Both the position numbers and the translations under genes were made by a program. Below, piece by piece: positions 2,789-8,039 of a DNA stretch of 64,000 bases. Location of the stretch: NCBI RefSeq assembly GCF_900457465.1, contig NZ_UAUU01000011.1:1426001-1490000 (forward strand). The letters are read 5' to 3'. Each line of letters begins with the position of its first letter. The stretch's first letter is position 1. This DNA comes from Sphingobacterium multivorum. GTDB lineage: Bacteria; Bacteroidota; Bacteroidia; Sphingobacteriales; Sphingobacteriaceae. Below the pieces are notes generated by a model. The model saw only the letters and a list, made by a program, of their open reading frames with translations, was not told the DNA's origin and did no database searches.

Positions 2789-4225
2789 TTATGGCGTATT
2801 TGGCGGTAAAGTATCCGTTCCGCCCCCCAGTGCACGGTAAAGATCTATGGCCGCATTGAGCTTTTCCCGTTTTACTGTAATACGTTCCAAATCATTTTGA
2901 AGTGCATTGTTTTGGGCAGTTATCACTTCCAAATAGTTTGCCATCCCACTTTTGTAAAGTAAGGCCGCATCAGCGGTGGCTTTGGCGAGGGCATTTGATT
3001 TGGCGTGGATAAGTCGCAGGCGCTGTTCTGTATGTTTGATTTTTGCCAAGGTATCAGAAACTTCCGAAACTGCGACCATAACCGACTGTTTAAACTGCAA
3101 AGCTATCTTTTCGCGTTCGATGACCGATATCTCATAGTTTGTTTTCAAGGCCCCTTTCTGAAAAATCGGTTGAGCAATATTCCCTGCTATTGTTTTCACA
3201 ATAGAACCCGGTAGATCAAACCATTTGCTAAATTGAATGGAGTTTGTACCAATGGATGGAGTCAAGCTTATGGAGGGGTACATTGCTGCTTTAGCGAGTC
3301 CCATTCTGCTTGTCGCAGCCACAACAGCGTATTCAGCTGCTCTGACATCTGGTCTGCGGCTTAATAGTTCGGCCGGTACCCCTGCGGCAAGTCCGTCTCC
3401 AACAATCGTATCATCTAAACTTGCTGTACGTTGGATGCCCTCGGGGAAACCTCCGCAAAGAATGCTCAGTGCATTTTCTTCGACCGCCATATTTTGATGG
3501 GCTAGGGGAATTAATAATTCAGCAGTTTTCTTCTGAGCTTCGGCTTGCTCCACAGCAAGCGAACTGACCAGTGATGAGTTGTATTGCAAACGTATCATAT
3601 TCAGTGTGCTATCGCTCAATTGAACATTTCTTTGTGCAATCTTAAGCTGTTCATCCAAAGCAATCAGATTGTAATATGACTGGATGACCTGTACAATAAC
3701 CCGGGTTTTCAAAGCCGATAAATTTTCCTTTTGGCCAAAAAAATTAGCCAAGGATTCTTCTTTTTGCATTTTTACCTTTCCCCATATATCGGCTTCCCAA
3801 GACAATCTGAGCGTAGCACTATAATCGTCCATATGAGGCGTCCCGATAAATTGGTCACTTAGTGAGCCATTTAAAGAGTTGCTCGATAACCAGGTTCTAT
3901 TCGCTCCAATACTTAAATCAGCTGTTGGTAGTAATCCTTTCTTAGACTGCTTGTACGCGAGTTCCAATTGTTGCATGTTCAGGAGTGCTACATTGACGTC
4001 CGTATTATTGGACAAAGCCTTTTCAATGAGTGATGTCAACAGGGGATCCTGTACAAAGTTACGCCAGGATAGCTGTAGCGTATCAGACGTCACGACAACC
4101 TCGCTGTTTTTGAAATTTTCGGGCATTGCTATCTCCTGACGGGTGTATTTTTTGCCCACGCTGCATGCGGACAACAACAGGGTAGTGCTTGCGAAAATTG
4201 TTATATAGTGATGAAATTTTTTCAT
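2789..4225 (-). CDS. NodT-family outer-membrane efflux lipoprotein (TolC-like)
   Basis: Outer-membrane channel component of a tripartite RND efflux pump. The 478 residues start with a lipoprotein signal peptide ending in LLSAC (lipidated Cys about residue 21), then two outer-membrane-efflux repeats of long alpha-helices and short strands, typical of CusC/OprM/NodT proteins (usual length 450-490). The motif LSRRPDVRAAE, highly typical of the family, is present near residue 290. The frame is intact. It begins 1 base after the pump remnant's stop, so it was the last gene of a membrane-fusion protein / pump / channel operon. The pump is now only a C-terminal fragment, and no membrane-fusion protein is present, so this channel is probably orphaned or serves another pump. 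Confidence 0.93.
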   Translation of the reverse strand: MKKFHHYITIFASTTLLLSACSVGKKYTRQEIAMPENFKNSEVVVTSDTLQLSWRNFVQDPLLTSLIEKALSNNTDVNVALLNMQQLELAYKQSKKGLLPTADLSIGANRTWLSSNSLNGSLSDQFIGTPHMDDYSATLRLSWEADIWGKVKMQKEESLANFFGQKENLSALKTRVIVQVIQSYYNLIALDEQLKIAQRNVQLSDSTLNMIRLQYNSSLVSSLAVEQAEAQKKTAELLIPLAHQNMAVEENALSILCGGFPEGIQRTASLDDTIVGDGLAAGVPAELLSRRPDVRAAEYAVVAATSRMGLAKAAMYPSISLTPSIGTNSIQFSKWFDLPGSIVKTIAGNIAQPIFQKGALKTNYEISVIEREKIALQFKQSVMVAVSEVSDTLAKIKHTEQRLRLIHAKSNALAKATADAALLYKSGMANYLEVITAQNNALQNDLERITVKREKLNAAIDLYRALGGGTDTLPPNTP

Positions 4226-4226
4226 T

Positions 4227-5278
4227 TTAATCGTTTGTATTGTGTACTGTATTGTCCGTAAGTTTTTTACCCGAAACTTTTTCTTGCAAATATTGGAACA
4301 CCAGGTATAGTAATGGTATAATAATTACCCCAAGGATAACACCGCTTAACATACCCATTGCTGCTCCTGTACTGATGGAATGGTTACCTGTAGCCGTTCC
4401 GCCGGTCGCAAACATCAAGGGGACCATACCCGCAATGAAAGCCAATGAAGTCATCAAGATTGGGCGTAGACGAGCTCTTGCGCCTTCTAAAGCCGAATCA
4501 ATGAGTGAGGAGCCTGCTCTTCTCCGCTGTAAAGCAAATTCAACAATCAAAATGGCATTTTTTGCCAAAAGACCGATGAGCATGATCAAGCCGACCTGGA
4601 CGTAGATATTGTTGTCCAATCCAATAGCACGTGTTCCTAGGAAAGAGCCGATCATCCCTGTTGGGATTGATAACAGGACGGCAAGAGGCAATAAGTAACT
4701 TTCGTACTGTGCTGATAGTAAGAAATAGACAAATAGCAAGCTTAATGCTAGGATAAGTACGGTTTGATTGCCTGATGACTTCTCTTCCAAACTAAGTCCT
4801 GTCCATTCGTAGCTGTAGTCTCCCGGTAACTTGGTCAATACATTTTTCTCCAATGTTTCCATGATAGCACCATTACTGATACCAGGCGTACTAACAACGT
4901 TTATCGTGAGCGAATTGTATAAATTATAACGGGTTACCGACTCAGGACCATACACTTTACGAAGTGTGACCAAGGTATTTACAGGGACCATTTGGCCAAG
5001 ATTATTCTTGACAAATATTTCGTTGAATGCTTCTTTATCGGTTCTATAAATGCCATCAGCTTTAACTGCTATCCGATAGAATTTACCGAAACGATTGAAA
5101 TTCAATGATTGGTCACCCGCAAAGTAAGTTTGAACGGACGAAAGCATTTCACTGACATCAGCCAAGTTGGGCCGCTTTGTCTTCATCTACTTCTAACTCC
5201 ATCTGTGGATAATCTGCTCTGAACATGGTATAGGCAAATTGCACTCCCGGTTGTTTCATAATCTGCTAGGTCAATAGG
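4227..5278 (-). pseudogene. remnant of RND (HAE1/AcrB-type) efflux pump, C-terminal third
   Basis: An intact pump has about 1050 residues; here an open frame of 319 residues (4227-5186) covers the second porter half, the last membrane helices (SAQYESYLLPL, AKNAILIVEFA, GARARLRPILMTS) and the C-terminus. Upstream of its ATG, another frame continues the family sequence back to about 5278 (VQFAYTMFRADYPQ, then DEDKAAQLG), so there is a frameshift near 5160-5170, an in-frame TAG near 5262, and then family sequence ends. The remaining ~700 codons and the membrane-fusion gene are missing. The two frames meet at a CAACTTGGC repeat unit, so loss of one unit of a short duplication is a plausible cause (inference). 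The pump cannot function. Confidence 0.88.
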
Positions 5279-5483: not shown

Positions 5484-8039
5484 ATGAGAAGAATCTTTAC
5501 ATTAATTGCCTGTTGCTGTGTTTTTAATTCGCATGCGCAGCGTATGGACAGTATTACCACGGTGATCGCACCTGAGTATGACCGAGTGGGATTATTGCAT
5601 CGATTTTGGCTTGGAGATAGTTACCGTAAATTATACAATACTCCTGTTAAGATGCGTGTGATGGATCTCGCTACAGAGCGAGGTGGACTTCAGATCGTCA
5701 AGTTGGGCGGCGGAATGCAGACCCAGTCGCTTCGACTGGTAGATTCTTCGGGTAGGGAGTGGGTTCTCAGGTCCATTCAGAAATATCCTGAACGCAGTCT
5801 CCCGGAAAGCCTCCGAAAGACATTTGCAAAAGATATTGTACAGGATCAGATTTCGATACATCATCCATTTGGAGCATTGACCGTTCCGCCATTTAACAAA
5901 GCCTTAGGAATTCCTTCAGCCTCGCCGGAACTGGTTTTTGTGGGAGATGATCCAAGGTTTGGCGAGTATCGTGAGGTATTTAAGAATAGGGCCTATATGT
6001 TTGAGGCGCGTACCCCTTTTGAGGATCAAAAAACGGATAATAGCGCAAAAGTCATGCGTAAAGTGTTGGAAGACAATGATACACAAATTGATCAGAAGCT
6101 CACACTACGTGCACGATTGTTAGATTTTACGTTGGGCGACTGGGATCGCCATCAAGACAACTGGCGTTGGGACCCCGAAAAAGAAAAAGGTAAAAAGATC
6201 TATACGCCTGTCCCTAGAGATAGGGATAAGGTGTATTATAAAACTTCGGGGGTATTTCCAACATTACTTTCCTATCAATGGTTGAAGGCCCATTTGCAAC
6301 CCTTTAGTCCACATATCCGAAATGTGCCCCATTGGAATTTTAATGCAAGTACTTTTGATCATTTTTTTCTCACGCATCTTACGGTGGACGAGTGGATTGA
6401 CGAAATACAATTTGTTCAGAAAACATTGACGGATTCGTTGATTCATCAGGCTATGTTAACGATGCCTGATACCATTGTGAAAATGAGCGCGAATGAACTG
6501 GAAACAAATATTCGTTCAAGAAGGGACGAACTGATGGAAAGTGGATTAACCTACTACCGATTTCTAGCCCGTGTCGTTGAACTACCATTGTCCGCCAAAT
6601 CTGAATTTGTAGATGTCGATTACAATAGTGATGGTTCGGTCACTGTCAATATCCATAACAAGAAAAAGGATGGCACCGAAGGGCGAAAATTGCTAAAACG
6701 TACTTTTGTACCTGATCAGACCAAAGAAGTTCGCATATATGGTATATCGGGCGCTGATGAATATAAGTTCCATGGATCGGGCAAATCGCCCATAAAGGTT
6801 CGGATTATTGGTGGTGATGGTCAGGATTTGTACCGTACAACAGACAAATTTGCCAATGGCAGCAAAGTTTATATCTATGATGGTAAAGAGCAGGTTCAGG
6901 GTACTATCCAGGTTGATGATGCTATTCATCTGAAATTGAGCAAAGACAGCGCTGTCCATACGTTTGACTATGACAATTTTGTCTATGATCGTAAAGGAGT
7001 TGTTTTTAATTTGGACTATGGCGTTGACCGCGGACTTATTTTTGGACTGGGGTATATGATCGAAAATCAAGGATTCAGAAAGAAACCTTATGCGTATAGG
7101 CATGAGTTTCTTGCCAGTTATTTGACCGGTCGCGAATCATTTATGTTTGATTACAAAGGTAATTATAAGGAACTCATTGCAGGGCATGATCTTTACATTC
7201 ATCTTTCATCCCTTGGGCCCAAAAACCTGAGCAACTTCTTTGGGTATGGAAATAATACCATTTTTGATAAATCGGATTCAAAGCGCATTTCCTATTACCG
7301 AAATCGATTTGATCTTGTGAATGGTGATATTTTTCTAGAAAGATACCTAGCCCCCAAATTCAAGGTTTTCTATGGATCCTCCTCCGAATATTATAATAGT
7401 AAAGAATTAAATAATGTTGGACGATACTTTGAAGAGTTTCATGAAAAATATCCTTCGGAGCCTATCTACGGTAGTAATTTTTTCACTGGGGTCACCACTG
7501 GTATAGATTACGATACCCGCGATAATATCAGTAATCCAAAATCGGGAGTACATTTTCACACTAGATTGGGGTGGAATGCTGAAATCGGAGGGGAGGGCCG
7601 CAACTATACAAAATTACAGCATTCCATGAGTTTTTATAAAACGGTTGCCGACAACTATATTACTTTTGCTAATCGTGTGGGATTTGATGCGGTATGGGGA
7701 GATCCCTATTTTTATCAGCACGCACAAATTGGAGGAGAAATGAGCTTAAGAGGGTATAATTCTCGGCGATTTACTGGGAAAACAGCGCTTTATAATAATT
7801 TTGACATGCGATTGAAATTATTTAGCTACTCTTCTTATATCGTTCCTGGAACAGTCGGGGCAATTGGTTTCTATGATATAGGAAGAGTCTGGATGAGTCA
7901 TGAAAATTCCAATGACTGGCATATGGGATATGGTGGCGGAATTTATTTTATGCCAGGAGATCTATTAACTATTCAAGGAGTAATAGGGTTCAGTAAAGAA
8001 GCAACCTTGCCTTATCTCCGAATTGGACTTTCTTTTTAA
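5484..8039 (+). CDS. secreted kinase-like domain fused to BamA/Omp85-type barrel
   Basis: 851 residues starting at ATG 5484 with a clear signal peptide ending SHAQ; a GTG 29 codons upstream gives a poor N-terminus. The C-terminal ~330 residues look like a surface-antigen (D15/Omp85, BamA/TamA) beta-barrel: TGIDYDTRDNISNPKSG, the GGEMSLRGY loop equivalent to the RGF/Y signature, and a final Phe. The middle (about residues 60-270) carries VLRSIQK, GDWDRHQDNW and PVPRDRD, spaced like the ATP-binding Lys, catalytic DRHxxN loop and metal-binding acid of PI3K/HipA/FAM20-like kinases. In related Bacteroidota proteins this part follows a calcineurin-like phosphoesterase domain, which is absent here. 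Kinase activity is an inference from motif order only. A LuxR regulator follows 29 bases later. Confidence 0.8.
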   Translation: MRRIFTLIACCCVFNSHAQRMDSITTVIAPEYDRVGLLHRFWLGDSYRKLYNTPVKMRVMDLATERGGLQIVKLGGGMQTQSLRLVDSSGREWVLRSIQKYPERSLPESLRKTFAKDIVQDQISIHHPFGALTVPPFNKALGIPSASPELVFVGDDPRFGEYREVFKNRAYMFEARTPFEDQKTDNSAKVMRKVLEDNDTQIDQKLTLRARLLDFTLGDWDRHQDNWRWDPEKEKGKKIYTPVPRDRDKVYYKTSGVFPTLLSYQWLKAHLQPFSPHIRNVPHWNFNASTFDHFFLTHLTVDEWIDEIQFVQKTLTDSLIHQAMLTMPDTIVKMSANELETNIRSRRDELMESGLTYYRFLARVVELPLSAKSEFVDVDYNSDGSVTVNIHNKKKDGTEGRKLLKRTFVPDQTKEVRIYGISGADEYKFHGSGKSPIKVRIIGGDGQDLYRTTDKFANGSKVYIYDGKEQVQGTIQVDDAIHLKLSKDSAVHTFDYDNFVYDRKGVVFNLDYGVDRGLIFGLGYMIENQGFRKKPYAYRHEFLASYLTGRESFMFDYKGNYKELIAGHDLYIHLSSLGPKNLSNFFGYGNNTIFDKSDSKRISYYRNRFDLVNGDIFLERYLAPKFKVFYGSSSEYYNSKELNNVGRYFEEFHEKYPSEPIYGSNFFTGVTTGIDYDTRDNISNPKSGVHFHTRLGWNAEIGGEGRNYTKLQHSMSFYKTVADNYITFANRVGFDAVWGDPYFYQHAQIGGEMSLRGYNSRRFTGKTALYNNFDMRLKLFSYSSYIVPGTVGAIGFYDIGRVWMSHENSNDWHMGYGGGIYFMPGDLLTIQGVIGFSKEATLPYLRIGLSF

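Follow-up and report, generated by a model that had tools for sequence, protein, structure and literature searches.

What does a domain with kinase-like motifs do when it is joined to an outer membrane barrel? The question is raised by a gene at positions 5484 to 8039 of a 64,000-nucleotide stretch of the Sphingobacterium multivorum genome (contig NZ_UAUU01000011.1, positions 1,426,001 to 1,490,000; the whole stretch is called the window below). The gene product has a signal peptide at its N terminus and an Omp85 barrel in its C-terminal half. Structure prediction supports a protein-kinase-like fold for the N-terminal domain, and CotH is the nearest sequence relative among the families compared. 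The most probable reading, given a probability of roughly 0.6, is that of a CotH-like phosphotransferase situated N-terminal to the barrel, at the periplasmic surface of the outer membrane, and acting on a substrate in the envelope. The domain family is widespread in Bacteroidota and unnamed.

The gene is organized as follows. Fractions of 51 refer to a phylum-wide alignment of the domain (A5).

5484..8039, + strand: complete gene, stop codon included, encoding 851 amino acids with a predicted kinase-fold domain and an Omp85 barrel (open reading frame sequence and full-length model)
5484..5540, + strand: signal peptide, residues 1-19, MRRIFTLIACCCVFNSHA-Q, with cleavage before Q20 placed by eye
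5646..6569, + strand: predicted kinase-fold domain, residues ~55-362 (AlphaFold2 model; kinase matches by Foldseek and VIA-align; hhalign to CotH for the second half)
5706..5723, + strand: Gly-rich loop GGGMQT, residues 75-80 (first two glycines in 48/51; between model strands 70-75 and 82-86)
5763..5783, + strand: beta-3 strand motif VLRSIQK, residues 94-100 (R96 in 48/51, K100 in 50/51)
6135..6164, + strand: catalytic-loop motif GDWDRHQDNW, residues 218-227 (D221 in 48/51, H223 in 46/51; in register with CotH GNWD and with CtkA)
6207..6227, + strand: acidic motif of metal-binding type PVPRDRD, residues 242-248 (D246 in 47/51, D248 in 48/51; in register with CotH IPYDYD)
6573..6983, + strand: beta-rich linker of ~135 residues, residues ~364-500 (secondary structure of the full-length model)
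6990..8030, + strand: 16-strand Omp85 barrel, residues ~503-849 (PF01103, Foldseek match to BamA, 16 long strands)
7731..7757, + strand: GGEMSLRGY loop motif, residues 750-758 (sequence; G750, G751, L755, R756 and G757 invariant in 13 sequences)

The mechanical call of the open reading frame begins at GTG 5397. The ATG at 5484 gives a signal peptide that is clean by eye, and relatives have similar hydrophobic N termini, frequently with an A-Q ending. The signal peptide, the motifs and the barrel features quoted in an earlier, sequence-only reading of this DNA are all found in the 851-residue frame in the order given there. The full-length predicted model has a predicted local distance difference test score (pLDDT) of 85.6 and a predicted template modelling score (pTM) of 0.77.

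The N-terminal domain was modeled separately with AlphaFold2 (residues 17-385), using an alignment of 61 sequences (A3) derived from the window and 80 loci of relatives. The model is confident, with a pLDDT of 89.7 and a pTM of 0.88. A search of the Protein Data Bank (PDB) with Foldseek placed CtkA first (E 9.7e-5) and found CotH with an E of 2.7e-3; the list also includes Rio2 and the bacterial kinase complex 7vkb. The Fam20C1/Fam20A complex has a Foldseek E of 2.1e-2 and a probability of 0.97, and is not found among the 50 VIA-align rows listed. Superposition of the top Foldseek chains with VIA-align 2 gave a Z of 15.0 for PI4KII beta (259 residues, 4.2 Å), 14.0 for CotH (239 residues, 3.8 Å), 13.6 for CtkA (233 residues, 4.4 Å) and 11.6 for both VPS34 and HipA. 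The structural matches listed are all kinases or kinase-like proteins, as judged by their titles. According to the guide values of the tool, a best Z of 7 to 8 is typical in the absence of a clear match, but this value is 14 for mostly helical models. The assignment is therefore also based on the fact that several kinase families agree, and on evidence from sequence. The Z values of the leading rows overlap (13.5 to 15.0 for PI4KII, 14.0 for CotH, 12.6 to 13.6 for CtkA), so that the matches point to a fold group and do not single out one family. The sequence-only reading had described the motifs as kinase-like and had set as its own test that structure prediction should give a kinase fold with two lobes; that fold is seen in the predicted model.

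The relationship to individual kinase families was examined by comparing sequence profiles. A5 was aligned with 14 Bacteroidota CotH domains taken from 20 loci (A7) and with 16 HipA-family proteins taken from 24 loci (A6), near-duplicates, fragments and wrong-frame sequences being omitted; one CotH row (L210) begins 17 codons ahead of its match, in frame. The comparison with CotH by hhalign gave a probability of 78 and an E of 1.8e-5 for a single comparison, over 171 columns. The score was 46.7, whereas the reversed profile reached 13.6 and none of 30 block shuffles exceeded 25.6. In this alignment LGDWDRH falls on the GNWD loop of CotH, and PVPRDRDK falls on IPYDYDN, which bears out the earlier assignment of the catalytic loop and the acidic motif. 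HipA was considered as the nearest family by sequence and was rejected because its profile match does not stand out from shuffled controls. Thus, of the earlier assignment to a HipA/PI3K/FAM20C-like group, the kinase fold and the motif order have stood, but the nearest sequence relative among the families compared is CotH and not HipA. When PDB chains were searched with the 61-sequence profile, the best sequence was that of CtkA (E 0.038), with an alignment that begins at the DRH loop, and neither PI4K type II nor VPS34 was found. The Pfam CotH model gave no row for the window protein and is not among the 14 families matched by the 61 members at E values up to 10. Because no member matches this model, the domain is called CotH-like and not a member of CotH.

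The Gly-rich loop, the catalytic Asp and the metal-binding acid occur in kinase order in the alignment. D221, H223, D248, an Arg or Lys at position 96 and K100 (residues 205, 207, 232, 80 and 84 in the numbering of the domain model) are jointly retained in 46 of the 51 sequences, which chance would not explain. Two strongly conserved features had been missed by the sequence-only reading, namely the loop GGGMQT and an acidic helix residue, D121. That reading had taken VLRSIQK for the motif of the ATP-binding Lys. The motif is conserved and does seem to lie at the beta-3 site, but the strand order of the model indicates that the position of the canonical Lys is probably occupied by Arg 96, with K100 four residues further on.

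H223 is lost in five sequences (L155 and L169-L172), and in three of these D221 is gone as well. All three sequences lacking the first two loop glycines fall among these five: in L169, L170 and L171 the glycines have disappeared along with the catalytic residues. L172 has lost the third glycine, R96, D121, H223 and both acids, and L155 the third glycine, D221 and H223, with both acids retained. Joint loss of the Gly-rich loop and the catalytic residues is what would be expected of a working site that has been abandoned in some lineages. The decayed copies L169-L172 represent four families outside the class to which the window belongs.

The C-terminal half of the protein is an Omp85 barrel. The full-length model has 16 long strands between residues 503 and 849, the BamA barrels are the top Foldseek matches (E 1.4e-11), and the C-terminal residue is Phe 851. 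GGEMSLRGY corresponds to the loop motif of LRGY type in Omp85 barrels. The only Pfam family above its cut-off in the window protein is PF01103 (48.1 bits versus a cut-off of 24, with the best stretch at residues 636-820). Residues 1-635, including the whole N-terminal domain, have no family above cut-off. The beta-rich linker likewise has none, its single row, DM10, being below threshold (E 0.044), and Pfam gives no POTRA row ahead of the barrel. Weak Pfam rows in the window protein or in members of the domain family (DM10, IcmF_helical, DUF5625) were taken as chance matches. NCBIfam gave an Omp85_fam row alone, below cut-off, and PADLOC gave no match to the protein.

The N termini of Omp85 proteins point into the periplasm. 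A precedent for a catalytic domain in this position is PlpD, whose Omp85 barrel bears a patatin domain. That domain is periplasmic and deletion of PlpD alters membrane lipids, according to passages of PMC11116518. By analogy, the kinase-fold domain would be situated on the same side, facing the periplasm.

How widespread the domain appears to be depends on the search. A search with one query, residues 21-405, matched 18 of 40 relatives, all belonging to the genus of the window, and none of 16 genomes of other families. Besides a second copy in the genome of the window itself, 35% identical, this search found another 22 copies. An alignment scan of genome contigs found at least 586 relatives, of which the best 80 were kept as loci with 5 kb flanks; these 80 are presumably all Bacteroidota, either by the affiliation of their genus or by labels reading Bacteroidota, Bacteroidetes or Chitinophagaceae. 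In a sample of 198 genomes drawn from across the phylum, the 61-sequence profile detected the domain in 73; in three of these (G051, G072 and G168) the match is weak and partial (E 2.9e-7 to 3.2e-4), in frames of ~698 amino acids.

When the 91 places where the domain was found are sorted by their open frame, 51 have at least 1190 residues, 27 have 850-970, three have ~698 and 10 have fewer than 600. The long frames may carry a calcineurin-like phosphoesterase domain, PF00149, ahead of the kinase-fold domain, as seen in L126 by Pfam and in L025 by eye. The sequence-only reading had remarked that this domain is absent from the window protein; indeed, Pfam does not find PF00149 there, and does find it in front in the 1200-residue relative L126. 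The same reading had described a minimal kinase-plus-barrel architecture, which is correct as to the missing phosphoesterase, but the arrangement is ordinary within a large family. The frame lengths and the fused relatives show that it is one of the normal forms, common in Bacteroidota beside the phosphoesterase-fused form. Since no Pfam model covers the kinase-fold domain above cut-off, proteins of this family are probably annotated by their barrel or phosphoesterase alone.

Other arrangements were also seen. Stand-alone copies of the domain (~422 amino acids) with a membrane segment at the N terminus, as judged by eye, occur at L121:3339-4607, L122:3382-4650 and L123:3442-4710; they have no Pfam row and are too short to include a barrel. 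At L125:4129-9148 three kinase-fold genes lie side by side, with frames of 518-560 amino acids that are seemingly too short for a barrel. One of these genes was included in each of two Pfam scans, and no row was found. In one genome (G057, contig C15, 16534-19948) a CotH-family match lies ~1.4 kb from a match to the kinase-fold domain, on the opposite strand.

Certain genes recur next to the domain. The 80 loci were examined with flanks of 5 kb, some of which are shortened where a contig ends. A GAF-like protein of ~780 residues was found in 44 of the loci, an SdiA-regulated-type protein in 29, PPK1 in 19, HD-PycTM in 11, a separate phosphoesterase in eight and a phosphoesterase-kinase-fold fusion next door in two. 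The SdiA-regulated, PPK1 and HD-PycTM names were confirmed on examples by Pfam above cut-offs, and PF00149 was confirmed in two of the eight separate phosphoesterases (L037 and L048). Closely spaced gene runs consist of HD-PycTM, SdiA, phosphoesterase, GAF-like and kinase-barrel genes in L037, and of PPK1, SdiA, GAF-like and kinase-barrel genes in L050. The GAF-like gene lies between two kinase-barrel genes in L064, L070, L084, L090 and L099. The second copy in the window's genome (L112:4162-13549) is part of a run with HD-PycTM, PPK1, kinase-barrel and GAF-like genes, and with a protein marginally below the SdiA-regulated cut-off; the PPK1 of this run is a divergent second PPK1. The HD-PycTM neighbor suggested a role in anti-phage defense, but among seven proteins tested with PADLOC, the only hits were to the PycTM/2TM part of the HD-PycTM neighbor and to a stretch of PPK1 (a DrmC row). 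A search of the window's genome for a separate phosphoesterase elsewhere, made with one query and no positive control, gave no match.

The window gene is flanked upstream, on the other strand, by a truncated efflux gene and downstream by a gene for a LuxR-type regulator. The efflux gene (4227-5262, - strand) encodes only the C-terminal part of an RND permease, 319 amino acids matching positions 732-1020 of the 1021 in PF00873. A further piece lies in another frame just upstream, the pump gene being both truncated and frame-broken. It adjoins an outer membrane efflux gene (2789-4225, PF02321).

The GAF-like protein follows the domain across genomes. It is present at full length in 35 of the 198 genomes, 25 of the 60 genomes matched having been dropped before counting since their best match had an E of 2.7e-19 or weaker, and all 35 also have the kinase-fold domain. 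The hypergeometric probability of this overlap is 8.6e-19, shared ancestry being ignored. The two genes lie within 10 kb of each other in 25 of the 35 genomes. The GAF-like protein is present in all 28 domain-bearing genomes of the window's genus, family and class, and in 7 of 45 in other classes. The label "GAF-like" is based on Pfam rows below threshold, seen in 4 of 12 members, and on GAF-type PDB rows with a best E of 5.6e-4. The protein (for example L112:11186-13549 and G000:C9:1748832-1751090) is uncharacterised, has ~780 amino acids, a strongly conserved C terminus and no signal peptide by eye, and occurs in two copies in the window's genome.

Polyphosphate kinase was considered as a universal partner and rejected: PPK1 is nearly universal, occurring in 180 of the 198 genomes and in 69 of the 73 with the domain, yet it lies within 10 kb of the kinase-fold gene in only 8 of the 69, from five families. 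In a further 15 genomes, all of one family (f37), the distance is 12 to 16 kb. This was treated as ordinary synteny, because other genes intervene in the one f37 region examined (L131).

Taken as an active enzyme, the protein would work in the following manner. After export by Sec, the C-terminal half would fold into the outer membrane as the Omp85 barrel, leaving the CotH-like domain tethered on the periplasmic side. The phosphate donor would be bound by the Gly-rich loop, R96/K100 and the acids of PRDRD, while D221 would act as the catalytic base and the phosphate would pass to a protein, lipid or glycan of the envelope. In relatives, the calcineurin-type phosphoesterase, fused or encoded next door, might dephosphorylate the same or a neighboring substrate; its being either fused or adjacent suggests that it shares its work with the kinase-fold domain. 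Coupling to the state of the cell may occur through the GAF-like partner, which lacks a signal peptide and to which the protein would be tied in the class of the window, and, in part of the family, through polyphosphate kinase. The PPK1 neighbors raise the possibility that polyphosphate is the donor. A complete reversible envelope phosphorylation system, in which a CotH-like kinase and a phosphoesterase use polyphosphate or another exported phosphate from the neighboring polyphosphate kinase under a GAF-like cytosolic regulator, is a speculative extension that we consider rather doubtful.

A number of observations weigh against an active CotH-like kinase with conserved partners. The catalytic motifs are absent from some relatives (5 of the 51). 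Arg stands at the expected position of the beta-3 Lys in 48 of the 51 sequences, and at the site five residues past the catalytic Asp, where PI3K-like and HipA-like enzymes have Asn, 44 of the 51 have Gln, the window copy having Asn. The CotH profile match is limited to the second half of the domain. The HipA profile score of 21.9 is not significant, being beaten by 1 of 30 shuffles, though the DxH loop is in register. As to the partners, 38 of the 73 domain-bearing genomes lack the full-length GAF-like protein, 34 of the 80 loci have none of the neighbors named above within their flanks, and the window gene itself stands without conserved neighbors. Finally, the periplasm is described as being without ATP in a passage of PMC11116518. 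The two substitutions, an ATP supply that is not evident and the existence of decayed copies would all suit a pseudoenzyme, in which the kinase fold senses a nucleotide, lipid or peptide, or serves as a scaffold controlling the barrel or the phosphoesterase, and transfers no phosphate. This is unlikely, since the joint conservation of the Gly-rich loop, D221, H223, D246, D248, R96 and K100 (with the tested set kept in 46/51) exceeds what a scaffold needs, and we infer an active kinase.

The nature of the substrate may also differ from that of CotH. The highest structural Z belongs to PI4KII, and PlpD shows, in the passages of PMC11116518 cited above, that a periplasmic patatin on an Omp85 barrel changes membrane lipids. 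An outer membrane lipid or glycan kinase, acting on head groups of the inner leaflet in the manner of PI4K type II as PlpD acts on phospholipids, would agree with both. The Z ranges of PI4KII, CotH and CtkA overlap, however, and the sequence profile favors CotH, described in part of PMC7821199 as a Ser/Thr kinase, so we regard this as quite improbable. Kinase folds that carry out other reactions are represented by SelO and SidJ, and AMP transfer or ligation could be imagined here too; no result of the analysis favors such chemistry, and its probability is very small. A CotH-like phosphotransferase thus remains the preferred reading. If it is active, Bacteroidota would have kinase-type chemistry on the inner surface of their outer membrane, in a place where ATP is not expected. 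This raises the question of the donor, and a reversible phosphorylation cycle, if true, would run in an ATP-free compartment. The kinase-fold protein is a concrete enzyme with which the donor question can be addressed, and the GAF-like protein, seen solely in domain-bearing genomes, offers a second point of entry.

Among known proteins, CotH (PF08757; Bacillus cereus structures 5jd9 and 5jda) resembles the window protein in its kinase fold (Z of 14.0), in the register of both motifs and in the P-x-D-x-D pattern that the two share. In contrast to CotH, the window protein combines the domain with a signal peptide and an Omp85 barrel; its Gly loop differs in sequence, and it has no Pfam CotH row. 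CtkA and HipA also have the kinase fold (Z of 13.6 and 11.6), CtkA being the top PDB sequence match; neither is known to be a barrel protein. PI4K type II and VPS34 are similar in structure (Z of 15.0 and 11.6), and the window copy has the DRHxxN sequence, but there is no PDB sequence match to either, and most of the family (44/51) has Gln in place of the Asn. CotH itself acts in the outer coat of the spore (PMC7821199, in part).

On the barrel side, PlpD is comparable in that its catalytic domain precedes an Omp85 barrel and is periplasmic (PMC11116518, in part), but it is a phospholipase with POTRA, whereas the window protein has a predicted kinase fold and a beta-rich linker, and no Pfam POTRA row. 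The 'Metallo' subfamily of Omp85 proteins combines PF00149 with a barrel. The relative L126 has PF00149, the kinase-fold domain and an Omp85 barrel, and the subfamily therefore probably includes the fused form; the window protein differs from it in lacking PF00149. A Riemerella metallophosphoesterase is reported, in a title of 2021, to have phosphatase activity and may be a relative. The calcineurin-Omp85 class was described in 2014, with the domain read as a metalloprotease, and the word 'kinase' does not occur in the main text; a class without an N-terminal extension is described there as well (Heinz and Lithgow, PMC4104836, in part). A literature search of titles and abstract openings, with subscription papers mostly outside its reach, turned up no account of an Omp85 protein that bears a kinase-like domain. 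What appears to be new is the CotH-related kinase fold, while the barrel type that carries it was already known.

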